Source: an uncultured Oscillospiraceae bacterium (GTDB lineage Bacteria > Bacillota > Clostridia > Oscillospirales > Ruminococcaceae). Taken from it: DNA of 64,000 nucleotides. Made by a program: the position numbers and the translations under genes. Below are positions 2,131 to 58,808 of this stretch, in pieces (position 1 is the first letter of the stretch; each line of letters starts with the position of its first letter). The stretch covers positions 124,001-188,000 of the forward strand of contig CAKSIT010000001.1 in assembly GCA_934462925.1 (NCBI GenBank), given 5' to 3'. The notes under the pieces were generated by a model. That model worked only from the letters and a program-made list of their open reading frames with translations, had not been told where the DNA came from and did no database searches.

Positions 2131-3855
2131 TCAGCCGGAATTGCGCCCGAGGCACTCGGCTATAAGCTGCTTAAGCCTGTCCACCGCCTCAGCAGGCGCA
2201 AGCTTCTCGCTAATCTGCTTGTCGCGGCTCGACAGCTCGAACACGCCCTCGTCAAGGTTTCTCGGGCTTATTACCACGCGCAGCGGAACGCCCAGCAGGT
2301 CCGCGTCGGAGAACATAACGCCCGCGCGAACGTTTCTGTCGTCGTAGATTACCTCTACGCCCGCCGCCTGTAAGTCGGCGTAAAGCTTGTCCGCAGCCGC
2401 CCTTACGCGTTCGTCGTCGGGGCGAACGGCGCACAGGTGAACCTGCCACGGCGCTATCGCCATGGGCCAGATAGGTCCGTAGTCGTCGTGGTGCGCCTCG
2501 CATACGGAAGCCGCAAGACGGCCTACGCCTATGCCGTAGCAGCCCATTATCGGGGTCTGTACGTTGCCGTCCTTGTCAAGGTAGGTCATGTTCATGGACT
2601 TTGTGTACTTTGTGCCAAGCTGGAAGATGTTGCCGACTTCGATGCCGCGTGAGATGGTGATGTCCCTTGCGCCGCATTCGGGGCATATGCCGCCCTCGGC
2701 TATCTTCGCAAAGTCGCGGAACTGCGCGTCCTTAACGTCGCGCGCCATGTCAAGCCCCGTAAAGTGGCAGCCCTCCTCGTTCGCGCCCGCAACAAGGTTG
2801 TTGGCGTTTTCAAGCGAGGAGTCAAGCAGCATCGTTATGTTCTCGGGCAGTCCCACAGGTCCTATAAAGCCCGCGCACAGCCCGCATTCCGCGGTTATTT
2901 CCGCAGGGTGAATGTCGCAGCCGAGGAAGTTCGTTACCTTTGTTTCGTTTACGTCAAGGTCGCCGCGTACGAATACAACTACGTACGTGTCGTCCATGTT
3001 GCGCTGGTATACCACGGCCTTGCAGGACTTGAGCGGGTCGGACTTAAGGAACGCGCATACGTCCTCTATCGTCTTGCAGTCGGGCGTTGCGACTTTTGTA
3101 AGCGGCGCGGACTGCTCGTCGCGGAGATTTTCGGTAATGCTTCGGGCAGCCTCCATGTTAGCGCGGTAGCCGCACTTCTTGCATATAGCTATGCTGTCCT
3201 CGCCTATGGGCGTCAGCAGCATAAACTCGTGCGAAACGCTGCCGCCCATCATGCCGCTGTCGGAGGCTACGGAAATAACCTCGGGTATGCCTGCGCGCGC
3301 GTAAATGCGCTCGTAAGCCTTGTGGCAGCGGTAGTAGTATTCTTCCAAATCCTCCTGCGAGGTGTGGAACGAGTACGCGTCTTTCATAGTAAACTCGCGC
3401 ACGCGGATAAGACCGCCGCGCGGGCGCGCTTCGTCACGGAATTTCGTCTGTATCTGATATATCATGAACGGGTACTTTGAGTAGCTGTTGGCATACTCGC
3501 GCACAAGGTGTACAGCGGCTTCCTCGTGGGTCATGCCGAGTACCATCTGCTGCTTGTTGCGGTCGGTAAAGCGCAGAAGCTCGCTGCCTATCTTGTCGTA
3601 GCGGCCGCTCTCCTGCCAGAGCGTCGCGGGCATTACAACGGGGAAGGACACCTCCTGCCCGTCTATCGCGTCCATCTCCTCGCGGATTATCTGCTCGATT
3701 TTCTTGGTTATGCGCTTAAGCGGCATATAGCTTGAGAATATGCCGTTCGCCATGTACTTCATGTAGCCGCCGCGCACCATAAGCGCGTGCGAGTCTATCT
3801 GGCAGTCCGAGGGGCGCTCCTTAAAGCGGTCTCCAACGAGTTTTTCAAGTTTCAT
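2131..3855 (-). CDS. proS: prolyl-tRNA synthetase
   Basis: A 574-residue class II aminoacyl-tRNA synthetase that charges tRNA-Pro. The bacterial-type layout is visible: class II motif 2 (TKFRDEARPRGGLIRVREF, residues about 138-155), a long central insertion typical of the editing domain, and motif 3 GCYGIGVGRLAA near the C-terminal anticodon-binding domain. The start at 3855 (MKLEKLV) is chosen because AAAGGAAAAGGAAC precedes it. The open frame extends further upstream only through the T-box leader. The final residues (LGRNSG) and the TGA lie within a dispersed repeat. Regulated by the T-box upstream. Confidence 0.97.
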   Translation of the reverse strand: MKLEKLVGDRFKERPSDCQIDSHALMVRGGYMKYMANGIFSSYMPLKRITKKIEQIIREEMDAIDGQEVSFPVVMPATLWQESGRYDKIGSELLRFTDRNKQQMVLGMTHEEAAVHLVREYANSYSKYPFMIYQIQTKFRDEARPRGGLIRVREFTMKDAYSFHTSQEDLEEYYYRCHKAYERIYARAGIPEVISVASDSGMMGGSVSHEFMLLTPIGEDSIAICKKCGYRANMEAARSITENLRDEQSAPLTKVATPDCKTIEDVCAFLKSDPLKSCKAVVYQRNMDDTYVVVFVRGDLDVNETKVTNFLGCDIHPAEITAECGLCAGFIGPVGLPENITMLLDSSLENANNLVAGANEEGCHFTGLDMARDVKDAQFRDFAKIAEGGICPECGARDITISRGIEVGNIFQLGTKYTKSMNMTYLDKDGNVQTPIMGCYGIGVGRLAASVCEAHHDDYGPIWPMAIAPWQVHLCAVRPDDERVRAAADKLYADLQAAGVEVIYDDRNVRAGVMFSDADLLGVPLRVVISPRNLDEGVFELSSRDKQISEKLAPAEAVDRLKQLIAECLGRNSG

Positions 3856-3876
3856 TGTTCCTTTTCCTTTCAGCGT

Positions 3877-3909
3877 AAAAAAATAAGCCCCGCACCAAAG
3901 GCACGGGGC
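3877..3909 (-). terminator. T-box regulated intrinsic terminator of proS leader
   Basis: Reading the minus strand, GCCCCGTGCC and GGTGCGGGGC form a ten-pair stem around a TTT loop, followed by a run of seven T (3877-3883). The 5' half is shared with the antiterminator, as expected for a T-box. Confidence 0.9.
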
Positions 3910-4168
3910 GGACTTTTGTCCGTGATACCACCCGAATTCGGCGTAAAACGCCGCACTCATACCCCTTAACGCGGGAAACGGCGCTGCTTAATGCACGTGG
4001 TTACGTGGTTACGTGGTTACGTGGGGTCACGTGGGTTTGGGCGGCGCGCTCAAAGACGGGTTCACAGCCTGCGCTCCTGCGGCTCGCACCGACCGCCGCT
4101 TCTCTGTGGGGCGAAAGACTGCTACTGTTTCTTCTCAACGCTTTGCTATATTAAGGGCAAATACCCTA
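3877..4168 (-). promoter_or_regulatory. T-box leader of proS
   Basis: The minus strand carries the T-box core GGGTGGTATCACGG (core at 3927-3933 on plus), followed by CCGTGCC, which can pair with CACGG to make the antiterminator in place of the terminator hairpin. The transcript starts near 4168. A GAACCCGTC segment upstream is a plausible specifier loop reading CCC (Pro), which fits the downstream gene. Uncharged tRNA-Pro should stabilise read-through. Three exact copies of an 8-base unit lie within the leader (4001-4024), which is unusual. Confidence 0.9.
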
Positions 4169-9957: not shown

Positions 9958-10275
9958 ATGTCCATAGCGCACGACACATTGAACAGCCTTGTATCCATCA
10001 CGCAGTTCAACAAGGGTCAGGCTTCAAGGATATTTGACAGACTGCGCAGCGAAAAACAGCTGATAGTGCTGAAAAACAATGATCCCTCTGCGGTCATTCT
10101 GTCCCCCGAGGAGTATATAAGGCTCTCTGAGCTGGCTGAGGATTACGCGCTCATGCTCGAGGCTCAGAAAAGGCTGTCGCATGAGGGGCGCACGCTGTCC
10201 CTTGCCGAGGTGATGAACGAATGCGGCGTAACGCAGGAGAATATCGATAACGCGCAGGAGCTTGAAATAGAGTGA
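9958..10275 (+). CDS. type II antitoxin, Phd/YefM-like
   Basis: A 105-residue protein directly upstream of a RelE/ParE-type toxin. The N-terminal half has the Phd/YefM pattern: S-I-T-x-F-x-x-x-x-A-S-R-I-F, a conserved VLKNNDPSAVILSPEEY core and an acidic, probably disordered C-terminus that would cover the toxin. RBS AAAGGAGG. Its stop codon overlaps the toxin start (GTGA), indicating translational coupling. A perfect palindrome sits in the promoter, as expected for autoregulation. Neighbours are housekeeping, so a stand-alone chromosomal module. Confidence 0.88.
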   Translation: MSIAHDTLNSLVSITQFNKGQASRIFDRLRSEKQLIVLKNNDPSAVILSPEEYIRLSELAEDYALMLEAQKRLSHEGRTLSLAEVMNECGVTQENIDNAQELEIE

Positions 10276-10601
10276 GCTGGACGATAGTTTTCCTCGAAGA
10301 AGCCAAGGATGACTTAAAGAAGCTCGACGGCTCTGTTAAGCCGCAGGTGCTTAAGGGAATACAAAAGGTTTGTCAGAATCCGCTGCCCGATTATCAGGGA
10401 GAATACGGCAAACCTCTGGGAAATCAGTCGGGTGCGGCATTGTCGGGGCTTATGGAGATAAAATTCAAGAAAATAGGAATACGCGTGGTCTACAAGGCGC
10501 AAATTACCGACGATGTTATGCGAATCATTATAATATCCGCGCGGAGCGATAATCAGGTTTACGAGGAAGCCGAAAACCGCCGAAGAAAATACGACCTGTG
10601 A
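10272..10601 (+). CDS. type II toxin, RelE/ParE superfamily
   Basis: A 109-residue protein starting with GTG and overlapping the antitoxin by four bases. The fold pattern of the superfamily is visible: W-T-I-x-F-x-x-x-A-x-x-D-L-K-K-L, a central G-N-x-x-G-x-x-x-x-L-M-E-I-K and R-V-V-Y, ending in basic residues (ENRRRKYDL). RelE members cut mRNA on the ribosome and ParE members poison gyrase. The C-terminal basic tyrosine patch favours a RelE-like nuclease, but this is inference. The reading frame is intact. Confidence 0.87.
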   Translation: MSWTIVFLEEAKDDLKKLDGSVKPQVLKGIQKVCQNPLPDYQGEYGKPLGNQSGAALSGLMEIKFKKIGIRVVYKAQITDDVMRIIIISARSDNQVYEEAENRRRKYDL

Positions 10602-10622: not shown

Positions 10623-10658
10623 AAAAAAAATGCCCTTAGCCAAAAACTAAGGGCATTT
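10623..10658. terminator. bidirectional terminator, left copy of a duplication
   Basis: TGCCCTTAG and CTAAGGGCA form a stem between A-rich and T-rich flanks. It ends the toxin operon. An exact 31-base copy (10628-10658 and 10848-10878) lies on the other side of the mobile element. Confidence 0.88.
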
Positions 10659-10847
10659 GAGACCGTCGAAAAACCCCCATACGGGGGTTTTCCGACGAAA
10701 CATCCGCACTGCGCGCACGGTTTGACGGCTTGCCGCCAAACCGCACACTTGTGCGGATAGAAGTGTTTTTTGCCTCGGGAAGCCCGAGGCAAAAAAGTTA
10801 TTTCAAAGCCCGCATACGCAGGCAAAAATGACTTTTTCGACAGACTG
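10659..10847 (+). mobile_element. hairpin-rich miniature element, copy 1
   Basis: A 189-base element with imperfect 15-base terminal inverted repeats (start GAGACCGTCGAAAAA; end, reversed, CAGTCTGTCGAAAAA) and no coding capacity. Inside are stem-loops: CCCCC-ATAC-GGGGG, GTTTGACGG/CCGCCAAAC, CCGCAC/GTGCGG, a T-flanked GCCTCGGG-AAG-CCCGAGGC and a degenerate GCCCGC-ATAC-GCAGGC. About 90% of positions match 47832-48021. It is flanked by a 31-base direct duplication of a whole terminator hairpin. It looks like a non-autonomous (MITE-like) element moved by a transposase encoded elsewhere. Confidence 0.85.
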
Positions 10848-10880
10848 AAATGCCCTTAGCCAAAAACTAAGGGCATTTTT
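10848..10880. terminator. terminator, right copy of the duplication
   Basis: Same TGCCCTTAG/CTAAGGGCA hairpin with a T run on plus. On the minus strand it ends the tRNA-Ser(GCT) transcript. Confidence 0.88.
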
Positions 10881-10895: not shown

Positions 10896-10987
10896 TGGCG
10901 GAGAACGAGGGATTTGAACCCTCGCGCCGGTTTTAGCCGACCTACTCCCTTAGCAGGGGAGCCCCTTCACCACTTGGGTAGTTCTCC
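10896..10987 (-). tRNA. tRNA-Ser (anticodon GCT)
   Basis: Minus strand: GGAGAAC acceptor strand pairs with GTTCTCC, discriminator G, encoded CCA (10896-10898 on plus). The anticodon loop CTGCTAA gives GCT between CTCCC and GGGAG stems. A long variable arm (AGGTCGGC-TAAA-ACCGGCG region) and the T arm GAGGGTTCAAATCCCTC complete a serine tRNA reading AGC/AGU. Confidence 0.96.
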
Positions 10988-11237: not shown

Positions 11238-11329
11238 TGGCGGACAGAAAGGGATTCGAACCCTTGAACGGGTATTAGCCGTTACACGATTTCCAATCGT
11301 GCGCCTTAGACCAGCTCAGCCATCTGTCC
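11238..11329 (-). tRNA. tRNA-Ser (anticodon GGA)
   Basis: Minus strand: GGACAGA pairs with TCTGTCC, discriminator G, encoded CCA. The anticodon loop TTGGAAA gives GGA between CACGA and TCGTG stems. There is a long variable arm and a T arm AAGGGTTCGAATCCCTT. Reads UCC/UCU. Its own promoter lies at 11371-11399. Confidence 0.96.
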
Positions 11330-11370
11330 ACACCATTTTATTCTGCCAACGCTTTTGCATCGACTTGATT

Positions 11371-11399
11371 ATTATAGCACAAGCTTTCCCGTTTGTCAA
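11371..11399 (-). promoter_or_regulatory. promoter of tRNA-Ser(GGA)
   Basis: Minus strand TTGACA (11399-11394), 17 bases, TATAAT (11376-11371). Confidence 0.9.
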
Positions 11400-11443
11400 G
11401 TACTTTTCAAAATTTTTTTCGGATTTTCGACCTAGCGTCGCGT

Positions 11444-11898
11444 GCGTGTGACAGCGTACGCCAACGCAGCACAATCAGCCGTAACAGCCCGACGGGCTAC
11501 CGTCCGCCGCGGGCGTGTGACAGCCTGCGCCAACGCGCTCAAACAGCCGTAACCGCCCGACGGGCTACCGACCGTCCGTTTATTGCATTAAGCGTGCCAC
11601 GCCGCGGGCGTGTGACAGCGTACGCCAACGCGCTCAAACAGCCGTAATTGCCCGACGGGCTACCGTCCGCCGCGGGCGTGTGAAAACCGCCGCCAACACG
11701 GCTCATTCAGCCGTAACCGCCCGACGGACTACCGTCCGTTTATTGCATTAAGCGTGCCGCAACGCGTGCGTGTGACAACCGCCGCCAACGCGCTCAAACA
11801 GCCGTAACAGCCCGACGGGCTACCGTCCGCTGCGTGCGTGTGACAACCGCCGCCAACGCAGCACAATCAGCCGTAACCGCCCGACGGGCTACCGTCCG
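11444..11898. repeat. six-unit tandem array of the gene-end repeat
   Basis: Six units start at about 11444, 11513, 11608, 11676, 11768 and 11836. Each begins GCGTGTGAC/A and contains CCAACGC, CAGCCGTAA and CCCGACGGGCTACCG. Spacing alternates 69, 95, 68, 92, 68 because the second and fourth units carry an extra TTTATTGCATTAAGCGTGCC segment. There is no open frame with coding character. The array ends just before the Pho-box repeats of the pst promoter. Confidence 0.88.
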
Positions 11899-19974: not shown

Positions 19975-20021
19975 CAAATTCACCGAAATAGTGTTCAGCG
20001 GAGAAATCTGCTATTTATCTA

Positions 20022-20196
20022 AGGCAATACCGCACAAAGATTGTGCGTGTATTGCGCAGTCAGATTTTTCGTCAGATTGTACAATGAGGACGACGCAAGG
20101 CTGACGCCTTGCTAGGACGAATTGTGCAAGATGACGGAAAAGATGCAAGCAAGACACGTACAAAATCCAATAAATGGTCTTTGTGCGGTGTTGCCC
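20022..20196 (+). mobile_element. TA-flanked miniature element, copy 1
   Basis: 175 bases beginning AGGCAATACCGCACAA and ending TTGTGCGGTGTTGCCC, terminal inverted repeats of about 15 bases, flanked by TA on both sides (20020-20021 and 20197-20198). The interior shares GCAGTCAGATTTTTCGTCAG and GACGACGCAAGGCTG with 27012-27207. No coding capacity. The TA flanks suggest mobilisation by an IS630/Tc1-type transposase. Confidence 0.8.
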
Positions 20197-20209
20197 TAAC
20201 AGATTACTA

Positions 20210-20404
20210 AGGCAACACCGCACAATTAACGGCTAACGCCTTTTCTAAGCGACGCCTATGGCTTACGCGGCGCTTGCTCGCATATTTTCCGCCATATTGC
20301 ACAAATTCTCCTTGACAGGCGTCAGCCTGTCTGCGTCAAATTTATGCAATCTGACGAAAAATCTGACTTCGCAATCGTACGAAAATAATTATGCGGTATT
20401 GCCC
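20210..20404 (-). mobile_element. TA-flanked miniature element, copy 2 (inverted)
   Basis: 195 bases with the same ends as copy 1 but opposite interior orientation (CTGACGAAAAATCTGAC on plus). TA flanks at 20208-20209 and 20405-20406. Only 11 bases separate its TA from that of copy 1. The two inverted copies could pair into one long hairpin. Confidence 0.8.
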
Positions 20405-20412
20405 TAAAAAAA

Positions 20413-26857: not shown

Positions 26858-26905
26858 GCCGAGGCAGCGACTCATACAGCCGTAACCGCCCGTCGTGCAG
26901 CCTAC
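26826..26905. repeat. gene-end repeat at glgB 3' end
   Basis: CGGTTACGGCCGAATGAGCCG followed by CATACAGCCGTAACCGCCCGTCG: two inverted half-copies of the dispersed repeat. It encodes the C-terminal tail and stop of GlgB. A terminator hairpin (26916-26940, CGCCCC/GGGGCG) follows. Confidence 0.7.
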
Positions 26906-26945: not shown

Positions 26946-27011
26946 GCTGTGTAGCTGCGCGGACGATTGCCGCGCGCTCATACGCGCGACTAACCGCGCG
27001 CACGGTTTTTA

Positions 27012-27207
27012 GGGCAATACCGCATAATTATTTTCGCGCGATTGCGCAGTCAGATTTTTCGTCAGATTGTACAATGAGGACGACGCAAGGCTGTATGCCT
27101 TGCTAGGACGAATTGTGCAATATGGCGGAAAAGATGCAAGCAAGCGCCGCGTAAGCCATAGGCGTCGCTTAGAAAAGGCGTTAGCCGCTAATTGTGCGGT
27201 GCTGCCT
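27012..27207 (+). mobile_element. TA-flanked miniature element, copy 3
   Basis: 196 bases with ends GGGCAATACCGCATAATTA and TAATTGTGCGGTGCTGCCT, TA flanks at 27010-27011 and 27208-27209. The right flank TA, plus the last element base, forms the TAA stop codon of the minus-strand lipoprotein gene. The rest of 26858-27206 holds a gene-end repeat and a terminator, no gene. Confidence 0.82.
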
Positions 27208-28730
27208 TAGAACGCATAGTCTGCGAACGTGCTTTCAACGATGGGGGAGAACTCCGCGCTCTTCTGCGCCCAGCTCTCGCCCTCGAATGCAACGTTGGTT
27301 ACAAGTCCGAACAGGCCGTCCTCAAATTCCTTGCCGAAGCCGTAGCCGCCCTCAAAGAGGAACGTGAACTTTTCGGGGTCCATCATGTCTATCCACAGGT
27401 CGTACTGCTTCTCGTCCCATGTGATTACCCATCTGCGCTCGCCGGGGTACTTCTTGTGGTCCTTCTTGAAGTAAATAGGCTCGGGGTTGATGTGGTCTTC
27501 CTTTACCTTTGCAATGATTGCAGGGTCGGTTTCGTATACGCGGAAGCAGTTGATAAAGTCGATAGCGCCCGTGATGTTCTTAGCGCCCTTGGGGATAAGG
27601 AAGCCGTAGGTGTCAACTTCCTGATAGTAAGCGTCTGCGTTGGGGTCTCTGGGCAGCGGAACGAACGCGTAGTCGCTGGGCGTGTCGAAGATGTCGTCCT
27701 TAACGCCTTCCTTGTTCTGCGTGTGCTCGGAAAACGAGGTGTAGGACCACTCGGGTTCCATGAGGTAGAACAGTATCTTGTCGCTGTAGTTGGGGAAGTC
27801 GGCAGGGTCAATCCAGTCGCCGCCTATCTTGTTGAGCTGGTAGGGCATACCCTCGCGGTACAGCTCCTCAAAGAAGCCCATAGCTCTCGTTACGTTCTCG
27901 TTGTTGAGGTTGTTTATCATCGTGCCGTCGGAATTTACCTGAACAAAAGGAGTACCCGTTGTGCCGACGATAGCGGAAGCGGTAGTGTGGGTAGCGAAGT
28001 AGCCGATGTTGCCGTCAGCCTTGTCGCAGAACGTTACCATCATCTCCCTGAACTTGTCCCATGTCCACTGGTTGTTCATGTAAAGCTCGTAGGGGTCTTC
28101 AAGGTTGTTCTCGGCAATGGTCGTCTTGCAGTAGTTTACCGCAAAGGACGTTGTGAGCTTGTGCGGGAAGTAGTAGTGCTTGCCCTTGTACTCGTAGCTC
28201 TCGATAATGTCCTTCATGCCTACCCACAGCGCGCTGTTCATGTCTATGTAGTCGTCAAGCGGCTCAAACATATTCTTGGAAACCGTGCCGGGGTAAAGGA
28301 ACGCGTCCTTAAGGCAGATGTCGGGGGACTCATCGCTTGCGATAAGCGTGCCGAGCTTCTCATAATACACAGAACCCGAGTTGCCCTGAATATGCTCTAT
28401 CGTGCCGCCGTACTGCTCGCCCTGGAATACGAGGCACTGCTCCGTACCCTTCTGGTCGTTTGCAACCTCGTAGTGGCTGAATACTTTTACAACGCCCGCG
28501 TTTCCGCTGGGTTTGTAGTTGTCAGTCGCTACAACGTCCGCAGTCTTGTCGGTCTGGTCGAGCGCCATATCGGGGTCTGCGGTGGTAACTGCCGTAGATA
28601 CCTCGGAAGATGTAGCGGGAGAGTTTCCGCCCGAGTTGGGGTTAGCGCCCTCCTCTTCGCAGGCCGTAAGACCCGCAGCCATACCCGCGATAAGCACGCA
28701 GGCAAGAATTCTTTTAAGAGTGCTGTTCAT
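27207..28730 (-). CDS. extracellular solute-binding lipoprotein, copy B
   Basis: A 507-residue lipoprotein (lipobox GLTAC, Cys about 22) of the ABC-importer solute-binding (family 1-like) class. It has an acidic/Ser-Thr linker after the cysteine, then a two-lobe binding domain, with conserved segments PLDDYIDMN, RDPNADAYY and DTYGFLIPKGAKN. More than half of aligned residues match the neighbouring copy A. No permease or ATPase gene is near, so it must use transport partners elsewhere. The start at 28730 follows AGGAGG. The stop codon is completed by a TA-flanked miniature element. Substrate unknown; an oligosaccharide is likely from the neighbours. Confidence 0.88.
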   Translation of the reverse strand: MNSTLKRILACVLIAGMAAGLTACEEEGANPNSGGNSPATSSEVSTAVTTADPDMALDQTDKTADVVATDNYKPSGNAGVVKVFSHYEVANDQKGTEQCLVFQGEQYGGTIEHIQGNSGSVYYEKLGTLIASDESPDICLKDAFLYPGTVSKNMFEPLDDYIDMNSALWVGMKDIIESYEYKGKHYYFPHKLTTSFAVNYCKTTIAENNLEDPYELYMNNQWTWDKFREMMVTFCDKADGNIGYFATHTTASAIVGTTGTPFVQVNSDGTMINNLNNENVTRAMGFFEELYREGMPYQLNKIGGDWIDPADFPNYSDKILFYLMEPEWSYTSFSEHTQNKEGVKDDIFDTPSDYAFVPLPRDPNADAYYQEVDTYGFLIPKGAKNITGAIDFINCFRVYETDPAIIAKVKEDHINPEPIYFKKDHKKYPGERRWVITWDEKQYDLWIDMMDPEKFTFLFEGGYGFGKEFEDGLFGLVTNVAFEGESWAQKSAEFSPIVESTFADYAF

Positions 28731-31640: not shown

Positions 31641-33704
31641 GTATATGTGCAGCTGCGCGCCGTCGCGCAGGAACACGGGTATCACGTCTATGGGGGCGGG
31701 GACTACCACGCGCTGCCCGCCGTCGTACGTCGCGTGGGTGTTCGCGTCCTCCCATTGCGCGCCCGCGGGCAGCCATACGGAGCGCTCTGCCGCTCCCGCC
31801 CCGACGACGGGCGCTACGAGCAGCTTGTCGCCGAACATATATTCGTCCGCGCACTCGCACGCCTGCTTGTCCTGCGGGAAGTCGTAGAACAGCGGGCGCA
31901 TTATGGGCGTGCCGTTTTCGGCGGTTTCACGCATACATTCGCGGATATAGCCGCGCAGGTTCTCGCGCACGAAAAGGAACTTTTTGAGTATTTCGTAATT
32001 GTCCTCGCCGAAGCTCCACACTTCGTTGTCCTGCCCGCTTGTGAGCTGGCGCACGCCGTTTATGAACTCCTCCTCGCGCTCGTACCACGGGCTGCGCTCG
32101 CCGTGCATTCTGAACACGGGGCAGAAGCAGCCCCACTCGAACCACCGTACAAGCAGCTCGCGGAACGCGGGGTTGGTTATCTCGCCGCCTAAAAAGCCGC
32201 CTATGTCGCTCGTCCACCACGGGATACCCGCCATCGCCATGGAAAGCCCCGCGGTTATTTGCTCGCGCATTGAGCGGAACGAGGAGTAAATGTCGCCGCT
32301 CCATGTGAGCGCGCCGTATTTCTGGCTGCCCGCCCACGCGCAGCGCACAAGGCTAAGCACGTCCGTTTCGCCCGAGGCGCGCAGGCCGTCGTAAAAGCCC
32401 TTTGCATAGCCCACGGGGTAGACGTTGGTGCATTGCAGCGCAGGACCTGCGTAGTAGCGGTAGTTGTCGAAGTCGTAAGGGCCGTACTCAGGCTCGGCTT
32501 CGTCCAGCCAGTAGCAGCGAATGCCGTACTGCCCGTAGTTTTCGCGGCACTTCTCCCACACGTAGCGCTGCGCTGCGGGGTTCGTCGCGTCGTAGAACGT
32601 GGTGTTGCCCATCCACGTCATGTGTATCGCGTTTGAGCGGTCCGCGGTGACAAGCAGCCCCTTGTCGCTCATCTCGCCGAAGTTCTCGCTCTTTTCATCT
32701 ATAGTCGGCCATACGGAAACCACCGTTTCAACGCCGAGCGCCTTAAGCTCGCGCACCATTGCGGCGGGGTCGGGCCAGTCGCGCGGCTCAAACTTAAAGT
32801 CGCCCTGCCTTGTCCAATGGAAGAAGTCCACAACGATAGCGTCAAGCGGCAGCCCGCGCCTTTTATGCTCGCGCGCGATTGCGAGAAGCTCGTCCTGCGT
32901 GCGGTAGCGCAGCTTGCACTGCCAGTAACCCAGCCCGAACTCGGGCATCATGGGGCTTCTGCCCGTGGCGAGGGTGTACTGCGCCATTATCTGCGCGGGC
33001 GTGTCGCCTGCGGTTATAAAGTAGTCGAGCTTTTTGGTGCTTACCGCCTTAAACTCGGTTACATTGTTTGCGAAAACCGCCGTGCCTACTGCGGGATTGT
33101 TCCACAAAAAGCCGTACCCGCGCGAGGAAATGAAGAACGGCACGCTTGCCTGACTGTTCCTGTGGCAAAGCTCCAGCGAGCAGCCCTTTTTGTCGAGCCG
33201 TCCGTCCTGATACTGCCCCATGCCGAATATCATCTCGCCGTCGTACGCCTCAAAACGCGCGGCGAGTGAGAAGTCGCTGGTGCCGATAATGGGCTTTAGC
33301 TCGCGCGCCTCAACGCGAAGCGGCACGCAGTAACGGTTTATGCGGTCGCGGTTGCGCCAGTATTCCTCCGTCAGCACTTCGCCGCGGCTGTTTAAAAAGC
33401 GCAGCCAGCCCTCGTGCGTGATATGCACGGTAAGCGCGCCGTTCGTCACGCGGTATTCTGTAGCGGTCCGGTGGTACTGCGCGTACTCCTCGCCCTTGTA
33501 CCACGGGTCTGTAACGTCTATTTCCGCGCTCTCAAAGCTAATGTCGGTCTGCGGCACGGGCTCGGTGAGCGCCCAGTCGTTCCCGTCCATTGCGGGGGTT
33601 GCGGTCATTCTCACGCGGAACGAGTTTTCGCCCCACGGGTCTATCCAAAGCTGCCTTGTGCCGCTTGCGATTATCACGCGGCTGTTTTCGCGGTAAACTC
33701 TCAT
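31638..33704 (-). CDS. glycoside hydrolase family 31 (alpha-glucosidase/alpha-xylosidase type)
   Basis: A 688-residue retaining alpha-glycosidase. An N-terminal beta domain (1-240) precedes the barrel with nucleophile Asp401 (YWLDEAEPEYG) and acid/base Asp471 (TWSGDIYSSF). PWWTSDIGGF and the C-terminal beta domains follow. The EAEP form of the nucleophile motif and the G-D-F-K-F-x-x-x-D-W-P-D-P substrate loop are more like alpha-xylosidases than maltases, but specificity is not decided. No signal peptide: cytoplasmic. It is the last gene of the minus-strand run that includes cdaA, 18 bases after the FAD protein. RBS GGAGGA. Confidence 0.9.
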   Translation of the reverse strand: MRVYRENSRVIIASGTRQLWIDPWGENSFRVRMTATPAMDGNDWALTEPVPQTDISFESAEIDVTDPWYKGEEYAQYHRTATEYRVTNGALTVHITHEGWLRFLNSRGEVLTEEYWRNRDRINRYCVPLRVEARELKPIIGTSDFSLAARFEAYDGEMIFGMGQYQDGRLDKKGCSLELCHRNSQASVPFFISSRGYGFLWNNPAVGTAVFANNVTEFKAVSTKKLDYFITAGDTPAQIMAQYTLATGRSPMMPEFGLGYWQCKLRYRTQDELLAIAREHKRRGLPLDAIVVDFFHWTRQGDFKFEPRDWPDPAAMVRELKALGVETVVSVWPTIDEKSENFGEMSDKGLLVTADRSNAIHMTWMGNTTFYDATNPAAQRYVWEKCRENYGQYGIRCYWLDEAEPEYGPYDFDNYRYYAGPALQCTNVYPVGYAKGFYDGLRASGETDVLSLVRCAWAGSQKYGALTWSGDIYSSFRSMREQITAGLSMAMAGIPWWTSDIGGFLGGEITNPAFRELLVRWFEWGCFCPVFRMHGERSPWYEREEEFINGVRQLTSGQDNEVWSFGEDNYEILKKFLFVRENLRGYIRECMRETAENGTPIMRPLFYDFPQDKQACECADEYMFGDKLLVAPVVGAGAAERSVWLPAGAQWEDANTHATYDGGQRVVVPAPIDVIPVFLRDGAQLHIY

Positions 33705-47781: not shown

Positions 47782-47831
47782 TTGACAGAAACCGCGAGGT
47801 GTGATATAATAAACGCAAGCGTTTATTATAG
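47782..47831 (+). promoter_or_regulatory. promoter with palindromic operator, ancestral to the FNT gene
   Basis: TTGACA (47782-47787), 17 bases, TATAAT (47805-47810). A perfect palindrome with arms ATAATAAACGC and GCGTTTATTAT (47806-47829) overlaps the -10. The -10 and palindrome, without the -35, recur at 48022-48049 after the mobile element. Confidence 0.75.
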
Positions 47832-48021
47832 CAGACCGTCGAAAAACCCCCATACGGGGGTTTCCCGACGGGACATCCGCACTGCGCGCACGGTTTGACG
47901 ACTTGCCGTCAAACCGCACACTTGTGCGGATAGAAGTGTTTTTTGCCTCGGGAAGCCCGAGGCAAAAAAAGTGATTTCAAAGCCCGCATACGCGGGCAAG
48001 ATTGACTTTTTCAACAGACTG
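47832..48021 (+). mobile_element. hairpin-rich miniature element, copy 2
   Basis: 190 bases, ends CAGACCGTCGAAAAA and (reversed) CAGTCTGTTGAAAAA, with the same chain of stem-loops as 10659-10847, here with perfect GTTTGACG/CGTCAAAC, GCCTCGGG/CCCGAGGC and GCCCGC/GCGGGC pairing. It is flanked by exact 28-base direct copies of a palindrome (47804-47831 and 48022-48049). It sits between a promoter and the FNT gene; the T-flanked GCCTCGGG hairpin could terminate transcription. Confidence 0.87.
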
Positions 48022-48140
48022 ATATAATAAACGCAAGCGTTTATTATAGATTAAAAAGCCTTGCGCATACGTTCCCCGTCGGGGAACTGCGCGCATATCG
48101 GCAAAATGTATTGCATGATAACGCGTCACGGAGGGTCTGT

Positions 48141-48770
48141 ATGGGTGAAAACATAAGAAAATCGGTTCTGGCGGGACTTATGATAAGCATAGGCGGGTTT
48201 GTGAATCTCGCCTGCGGGCTTAAGGGGCTGCCGTGGGCGGGCGCGCTGCTTTTTGCGGTGGGTCTGTTCACGATATGCGAGTACGGCTTCAACCTCTACA
48301 CGGGCAAGGCGGGGTATATTGCGGAGGATTTCAGCAACGTGCGCTACATAGGCTTTGTGGCTGTAGTCCTTGCGGTGAACCTTGCTACGACCTTTGCGGC
48401 GGGCGCGGGGCTGAGCCTTCTTTACGCGGACATTGCCGAAAGCGCGCGGGCGCTCTACTCCGCAAAGCTTTCCGCGCCGCTTGCGAAAAGCTTTGTATCC
48501 GCGGTGCTGTGCGGCGTGCTTATGTTCGCGGCGGTGGACGCCAAAAAGCGCGGAACGCGGCTCGGGATATTCCTTGCTGTGCCTGCGTTCATACTTGCGG
48601 GGTTCGACCACTCTATCGCGAACTCCTTTTACGGCGGGCTTGCCGTCGGCGCGGATACGCCCTCGCTCAGAAACCTTGCGTTCACGCTTACAGTAGTGCT
48701 TGGCAACGCGGCGGGGTGTATGCTTATCCCGCTGCTTATGAAAACGCGCGAAAAAACCGCTTCGAGGTGA
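48141..48770 (+). CDS. formate/nitrite transporter (FNT) family channel
   Basis: A 210-residue membrane protein with about six helices. FDHSIANSFYGG is the FNT signature region (compare H-S-I-A-N-M-F), and TVVLGNAAGCMLIP is the second conserved half-helix. FNT channels carry formate, nitrite or hydrosulfide. It is short for the family (usually 260-290), lacking parts of the loops. The start at 48141 follows GGAGGGT. A hairpin-rich element separates it from the apparent promoter at 47782. Confidence 0.82.
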   Translation: MGENIRKSVLAGLMISIGGFVNLACGLKGLPWAGALLFAVGLFTICEYGFNLYTGKAGYIAEDFSNVRYIGFVAVVLAVNLATTFAAGAGLSLLYADIAESARALYSAKLSAPLAKSFVSAVLCGVLMFAAVDAKKRGTRLGIFLAVPAFILAGFDHSIANSFYGGLAVGADTPSLRNLAFTLTVVLGNAAGCMLIPLLMKTREKTASR

Positions 48771-58734: not shown

Positions 58735-58808
58735 CAAACCGTCGAAAAACCCCCATACGGGGGTTTCAGTCTGTTGAAAAAGTCAATCTTGCCCGCATAC
58801 GCGGGCAA
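58735..58808. mobile_element. hairpin-rich miniature element, rearranged remnant
   Basis: CAAACCGTCGAAAAA plus the CCCCC-ATAC-GGGGG hairpin (left end of the element) is joined directly at 58767 to the right end in inverted orientation (CAGTCTGTTGAAAAAGTCA, then GCCCGC-ATAC-GCGGGC). The interior hairpins are missing. No flanking duplication is visible. The remaining bases of 58611-58892 show only promoter sequence. Confidence 0.75.

Follow-up and report, generated by a model that had tools for sequence, protein, structure and literature searches.

We identified, in the 64-kb stretch of DNA analyzed here (the window), a miniature transposon (MITE) that very probably belongs to the IS1182 family and inserts in a palindrome-directed manner, with a transposase presumably supplied in trans and joining the element at the 5′ feet of the target hairpin. 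Palindrome targeting by IS1182 elements and IS1182 MITEs are both known, and a search of the open literature gave no paper that documents duplication of the whole hairpin; hence, this is a new MITE of a known family, displaying a variant of target use that recurs in several genera.

The first copy of the element (copy 1; 189 bp, positions 10659-10847, forward strand) has the ends GAGACCGTCGAAAAA and TTTTTCGACAGACTG and lies between two exact copies of the 31-nt sequence AAATGCCCTTAGCCAAAAACTAAGGGCATTT, at 10628-10658 and 10848-10878, each of which forms a perfect 12-bp stem with a 7-nt loop. The arrangement proposed in the earlier note, an element enclosed by two exact 31-nt stem-loops, is thus borne out by the sequence. 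When the flanks are joined to restore the pre-insertion site, a 15-bp stem is obtained, the dyad of which is the exact centre of the duplication. The terminal inverted repeats, GAGACCGTCGAAAAA on the left and CAGTCTGTCGAAAAA on the right (in the inward direction), are imperfect, and the element contains inner hairpins; as RNA, the overlapping pieces 10659-10782 and 10750-10847 each show better folding than any of 200 shuffled versions (z of -3.9 and -4.2, respectively). With up to two mismatches, the 15-nt end CAGACCGTCGAAAAA is found five times in the window, against 0.15 matches expected, and none of 100 shuffles reached five. These matches are both ends of copy 1, the left ends of copies 2 and 3 described below, and an apparent chance occurrence at 32382.

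Copy 1 is preceded by genes for a Phd/YefM-type antitoxin (9958-10275, forward strand, PF02604) and a ParE-type toxin (10272-10601, forward strand, PF05016), the latter ending 26 bp before the hairpin, and is followed by a tRNA-Ser(GCT) gene (10896-10987, reverse strand) that reads towards the hairpin. The flanking toxin and tRNA-Ser genes, together with the A8 and T6 runs across the hairpin feet, suggest that the original hairpin was a shared bidirectional terminator. The further claim that both resulting terminators look functional held only in part: the original A8 and T6 runs, each with three bases inside the hairpin, are kept on the outer sides only, and the inner sides (CATTTGAG and CTGAAATG) have no T tracts. 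Consequently, only transcription leading outward from the element meets a complete terminator-like site in each hairpin copy. With the T tract confined to the outer side, a transcript arriving from upstream would pass the left copy and enter the element, to be stopped by the right copy or by the inner hairpins.

Copy 2 (190 bp, 47832-48021, forward strand; ends CAGACCGTCGAAAAA and TTTTTCAACAGACTG) is 94% identical to copy 1 over 189 bp and is flanked by exact 28-bp duplicates (47804-47831 and 48022-48049) of ATATAATAAACGCAAGCGTTTATTATAG, a palindrome different from that of copy 1. Here, too, the dyad offset is 0.0, and in both full copies the palindrome dyad is the exact centre of the duplication. 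A promoter-like match, TTGACA-N17-TATAAT (47782-47810, forward strand; a consensus match only), is located upstream of a formate/nitrite transporter gene (48111-48770); its -10 hexamer, TATAAT, lies inside the duplicated palindrome, in the left copy. This palindrome does not look like a terminator, and the target therefore need not be one. Transcription from the promoter-like site would begin in the first palindrome and cross the hairpins of the element before reaching the transporter gene.

Only the left 32 bp of copy 3 are present (58735-58766, forward strand); it stops at the 3′ foot of the internal hairpin AAACCCCCATACGGGGGTTT and shows no target-site duplication. Joined to this hairpin foot is part of the right end of another copy, lying in the opposite orientation (58767-58808, reverse strand; 95% identity to copy 2 over 40 nt). 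We infer that the stretch 58735-58808 arose when a second element inserted at the foot of the MITE's own internal hairpin and was afterwards truncated.

The element is recognizable as a MITE by its length of 189/190 bp, the absence of a transposase gene, ends that are alike at 12 of 15 positions in inverse orientation, the exact target duplications of 31 and 28 bp at the two full copies, and its copy number, with two full copies and one partial copy in 64 kb and similar right ends present in tens per genome in three relatives. Its ends (CAGACCGTCGAAAAA / CAGTCTGTCGAAAAA) are terminal inverted repeats of the IS1182 type (about 15-16 bp, CAGACTGT type), as represented by the compared IS ends CAGTCTGTCAAAAAA, CAGACTGTCGAAAAA and CAGACTGTAGACAAA; the end type expected of an IS1182 partner is TTTTTCGACAG[AT]CTG. 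Palindromic targets, reported for some IS1182 members, were found at the window copies, in the relatives and at plasmid loci.

Among the genomes drawn, the nearest genus was reached via the prolyl-type tRNA synthetase (so named by its domains), first at 66% and then at 74% identity (G1045). In the window, the gene for this synthetase occupies positions 2131-3960 and has a T-box leader at its start (3901-4147, reverse strand). Of all the groups searched, this genus alone gave a successful end search, the right end of the MITE being matched in four of its seven genomes. The pattern TTTTTCGACAGWCTG, with at most one mismatch, occurs 60 times in G1106, 67 times in G1140 and 33 times in G1052, and also 6, 5 and 8 times in G1088, G1045 and G1153, respectively, and not at all in G914, with reversed-pattern controls giving 0-3 matches per genome. 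Between the window MITE and its counterparts in this genus, common sequence is confined to the terminal 17-22 bp on the right side (plus a few hairpin bases in some), so that the link between them lies in the end sequence and behaviour, not in the body of the element.

We pooled 80 stretches from G1106, G1140 and G1052 (for G1140, from among the matches listed) with further loci of the same genomes; in this pool, 95 distinct exact right ends are followed by 60 nt or more of sequence. A hairpin (score at least 9) follows at an offset of 0-3 in 85 of these 95, and a strong hairpin is absent at the remaining 10. By the same measure, a hairpin is found at 74 of 3000 positions taken at random, at 56 of 2293 that lie behind T5 runs elsewhere, and at 2 of 1900 flanks after shuffling. 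Twelve of the 95 loci (L016-L027) were found with a query that included the window hairpin, which introduces a small bias. Where at least 300 bp of left sequence was available (67 right ends), 46 cases showed the repeated flank in front of a left end, which was mostly CTGCGTGTCGATAAAA-like. For the other 21, no left end plus duplication passed the filter, but 17 of them adjoin a strong hairpin, and at least two (L103 and L106) have a repeated hairpin with a small indel. The palindromic duplication, whose absence at genome copies the earlier note had named as a refutation, was thus recovered at most of the testable ends in relatives. The broader proposal, a miniature transposon that duplicates a whole palindrome, is supported by the second window copy, which duplicates a different palindrome, and from the relatives, which follow the same rule.

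For measurement, strict anchoring of the left end removed four of the 46 copies (L022, L062, L066 and L083), and the resulting 42 were chosen by repeat and left end, the hairpin not being used. These elements are 87-450 bp long, with clusters at 241, 228-231 and 150-153 bp, and their duplications span 19-32 bp, with a median of 24. The dyad lies within 1 nt of the duplication centre in 40 of the 42 and within 2 nt in all of them; in one copy (L077), the right hairpin, mutated relative to the left one, has a short stem score. The correlation between duplication length and hairpin span (full outer stem) is modest (Pearson 0.40), because many stems run on as A:T pairs past the joint. Symmetry about the dyad is thus the cleaner measure, and 'whole hairpin' is to be understood here as a dyad-centred duplication that, as a rule, embraces the GC stem. 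T tracts follow no strong rule of polarity relative to the element, being found on the right only in 10 copies, on the left only in 7, on both sides in 17 and on neither in 8. At one locus in G1140 (L082, contig C43), two tandem right ends are separated by a single hairpin, TGGTATTTTCTTAAATTGAAAATACCA, as if that hairpin had been used twice.

It could be argued that insertion is untargeted and that selection retains the copies that fell into harmless terminators, the long duplication being incidental. Indeed, in 28 of the 42 copies the 100 nt to the left contain the end of an open frame (90 codons or more, stop to stop) read on the same strand as the element, a place where insertion is cheap. 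However, selection of this kind does not account for joints that are equidistant from the dyad, nor for copy 2, which sits in a promoter-overlapping palindrome, and we consider it highly improbable.

A more substantial alternative is that the same element makes the same duplication but that its transposase recognizes the palindrome as a duplex, with no hairpin being extruded, through a two-fold symmetric synapse that contacts two flexibly spaced half-sites. Dyad-symmetric duplications would equally be expected from a symmetric dimer that binds duplex DNA, and a weak primary preference is apparent, the first base of the duplication being A in 35 and the last base T in 36 of the 42 copies. However, the targets vary by site, and the 13-bp range of duplication lengths, with loops of 3-10 nt, is wide for a rigid synapse. 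Moreover, duplication length rises with loop size (Spearman 0.57), although this partly follows from how both are measured. Duplex recognition accordingly appears to us a possible reading, held at somewhat under even probability.

Empty sites in the relatives bear on the state of the target before insertion. Comparison of the flanks of the 46 copies across loci gave a single clean unoccupied ortholog: L067 in G1052 contains one CAAACGGCACAAAACAGTGCCGTTTT, and the orthologous L102 in G1106 has the element between two. Two more sites (L025 and L057) were each searched in seven genomes, loci showing one flank only not being counted. The L025 site of G1106 is unoccupied in G1052, where one slightly diverged 22-nt hairpin copy is found, and in G1140, where one hairpin lies beside an unrelated insertion; the L057 site of G1140 is unoccupied in G1106, again with one hairpin. 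All four readings at the three orthologous empty sites therefore give one hairpin, and sites already holding two, which the earlier note had named as the observation that would speak against a duplication, were not seen in the relatives. The collinear pairs L032/L073, L069/L077, L074/L130, L091/L132 and L100/L103 were not counted as empty, since one or more of the alignments of each pair place 180-377 nt between the flanks. The terminator that is empty in G1052 (L067) and occupied in G1106 (L102) is apparently occupied in the opposite orientation in G1140 (L101), which would apparently represent independent reuse of one hairpin. At L168 (G1140, contig C103), an empty hairpin site is adjoined by another repeat, which has many GGGACAGTCCC motifs and no relation to the MITE.

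Any single copy viewed alone would look as though two terminators had pre-existed, or as though the hairpins were part of the mobile unit, with the element merely lying between them. Such an origin is scarcely credible, given that each site has its own hairpin sequence while the ends of the element stay the same, and that one hairpin is found at three of three empty sites.

Stem-loop replacement, in which the target hairpin is removed and no duplication forms, is the other precedent within the family. IS1272 and TnSha1 are reported to target hairpins, some of which are confirmed terminators, and to delete all or part of them without duplication (PMC5678879, PMC4923244). Like the relatives of the MITE, IS1272 and TnSha1/TnSha2 of staphylococci combine an IS1182 transposase with inverted ends of about 16 bp and hairpin targets without a sequence consensus, but IS1272 removes the target hairpin, whereas the window MITE duplicates it as a whole. 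Replacement predicts that no hairpin remains after insertion, whereas both window copies and 46 of the 67 testable ends in relatives keep two, with one at the empty sites. We thus regard replacement as a very unlikely origin of the window copies, although some of the 21 ends without a duplication could be replacement events.

We then consider the source of the transposase. A search for PF13751 in G1052, G1106 and G1140, each with tens of MITE right ends, gave no matches; the partner may have been lost there, or, through assembly loss at repeats, may have collapsed at contig ends, where many right ends lie. Within the bacterial family, 16 of 48 genomes contain the domain. Near PF13751 hits, 20 IS1182-type ends were examined; 10 adjoin a strong hairpin and 10 do not by this measure, and the control value is 21 of 3000 positions. 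One relative carries a complete 1511-bp element (L144), bounded by CAGTCTGTCAATAAA and CAGTCTGTCAAAAAA and containing a 475-codon open frame; the 25-bp sequence duplicated on its flanks, ACCGCCGCATTATAAATGCGGCGGT, is a dyad-centred whole hairpin. Its transposase scores 417 bits and that of L146 400 bits against NF033551 (NCBIfam, IS1182 family; cut-off 270). The earlier note had guessed at an IS1182 link and proposed looking for a full-length IS with the same ends: L144, with ends similar to those of the MITE and an IS1182-family transposase, supports this link, the window element itself containing no gene. In L144 (2896-2938), another element end, CAGACTGTCGAAAAA, begins 2 nt past the right hairpin copy, such that one hairpin stands between two insertions.

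With the L144 transposase as a query, 351 of 72,556 plasmid records matched, and 15 loci (L190-L204) were picked by hand for spread; in this sample, L202-L204 represent one site, the right flank of L193 is common with L191, and L190 is cut by the record start. Whole-hairpin duplications of 19-30 bp were found at 8 of the 15 loci, in all eight with the dyad within 1 nt of the centre: L191, L192, L194 and L200 (Enterococcus), L195 (Sutcliffiella), L196 (Bacillus subtilis), L198 (Rhizobium binae) and L199 (Aminobacter). The three transposases checked (L191, L195 and L198) exceed the NF033551 cut-off. In the other seven loci (L190, L193, L197, L201 and L202-L204), no duplication was found; by eye, L197 and L201 have a different hairpin at each end, a pattern such as recombination between two copies would leave. 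In L191, an IS-end sequence lies directly left of the left hairpin copy. ISEfa7 and the other plasmid IS1182 elements resemble the MITE in their dyad-centred whole-hairpin duplications, but, unlike it, are full-length and encode their own transposase; their ends, mostly CAGACTG(TAG/CTG)ACAAA, depart from the window ends after approximately the first 8 bases. Long direct repeats are listed for some IS1182 members in ISfinder/TnPedia.

Several published observations touch on this behaviour. PMC4923244 and PMC5678879 cite a review by Siguier and colleagues for palindrome targeting by some IS1182 members, and IS1182 transposases are described as working with or without duplication and as possibly recognizing target structure (2025, PMC12056078). 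For ISPse1 (PMC3281130) and ISCaa15 (PMC3196728), both IS1182 elements, 4-bp repeats are tabulated. The ISMac2-derived IS1182 MITEs of Methanosarcina acetivorans (160 and 169 bp) share with the window MITE the size class, non-autonomy and an IS1182 partner, but their direct repeats are 4 bp and 0 bp, if the tabulated columns are taken as inverted, then direct (PMC3852290). The REP-targeting ISPsy8, ISPa11, ISPpu9/10 and ISRm22 likewise use palindromic intergenic targets, but they belong to other IS families, recognize a fixed REP sequence and make 0-6 bp duplications within REP (PMC1525189). A search of the open full-text literature gave no report of an IS1182 element or MITE that duplicates a complete target hairpin. 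The 2017 IS1272 paper draws duplication of the whole stem-loop as an alternative 'pathway b' of its model, with no case shown in the portion at hand (PMC5678879), and this pathway is the simplest account of MITE insertion.

Such an insertion can be outlined as follows. An IS1182-type DDE transposase, presumably supplied in trans in this host, would bind both MITE ends, and the two 3′ ends of the element would be joined to the strands of the palindromic target, each at a hairpin 5′ foot. With the joints at the 5′ feet, the offset between them would be set by the hairpin, and repair of the two single-stranded hairpins would then produce a full hairpin copy on each side. In DDE transposases and retroviral integrases, the strand-transfer offset is normally fixed, which gives a short duplication of constant length. 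What the sequences fix is the position of both joints, symmetric about the hairpin dyad and variable in spacing, which suggests that target shape or symmetry, and not a fixed cut width, guides the cutting enzyme. The transposase would read a hairpin or cruciform, not a duplex inverted repeat. That much of the IS1182 family, from Bacillota to Alphaproteobacteria, attacks an extruded hairpin or cruciform at its 5′ feet and takes the offset from the target is a generalization to which we assign about an even chance. If it is true, what is duplicated is the hairpin as such, long or short, and IS1272 replacement would be the same reaction at the 3′ feet. The 42 insertions, the eight on named plasmids and the L144 IS constitute a natural set in which the variable offset tracks target symmetry, and recognition of an extruded hairpin by a DDE enzyme in vivo becomes a testable question. 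The tens of copies per genome in three relatives may be helped by settling downstream of open frames, with a hairpin on each side.

Searches beyond these relatives yielded candidates that were rejected. In an Intestinimonas bin (L001), there was one exact CAGACCGTCGAAAAACCCCC match in the genome contigs, where the element stops at the 20-nt pattern, and the MITE search of 295 genomes of the same order gave one 24-nt match only. No matches were obtained from 250 genomes of the family of G540, a search with no positive control, and in the two genomes of the genus of G540 the pattern search gave one single-mismatch match that looks like chance. Three patterns searched in viral contigs matched 1, 2 and 0 contigs, which proved unrelated on reading.

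Additionally, the window contains other repeats and a doubtful RNA gene. ARAGORN calls a tmRNA with an unusual tag at 11238-11722 (reverse strand), overlapping tRNA-Ser(GGA); the call is probably spurious because Rfam at gathering thresholds gives the tRNA alone. Past the tRNA genes, positions 11420-11700 contain irregular direct repeats with a motif like CAGCCGTAACCGCCCGACGGGCTACCG, and a similar stretch is located near 26870. A second repeat family, with ends like TTAGGGCAATACCGCA and GTGCGGTGTTGCCTTAG, occupies 20010-20410 and 27005-27215; its inner sequence TTTTTCGTCAGATTG resembles the MITE end, and the family looks like another MITE.
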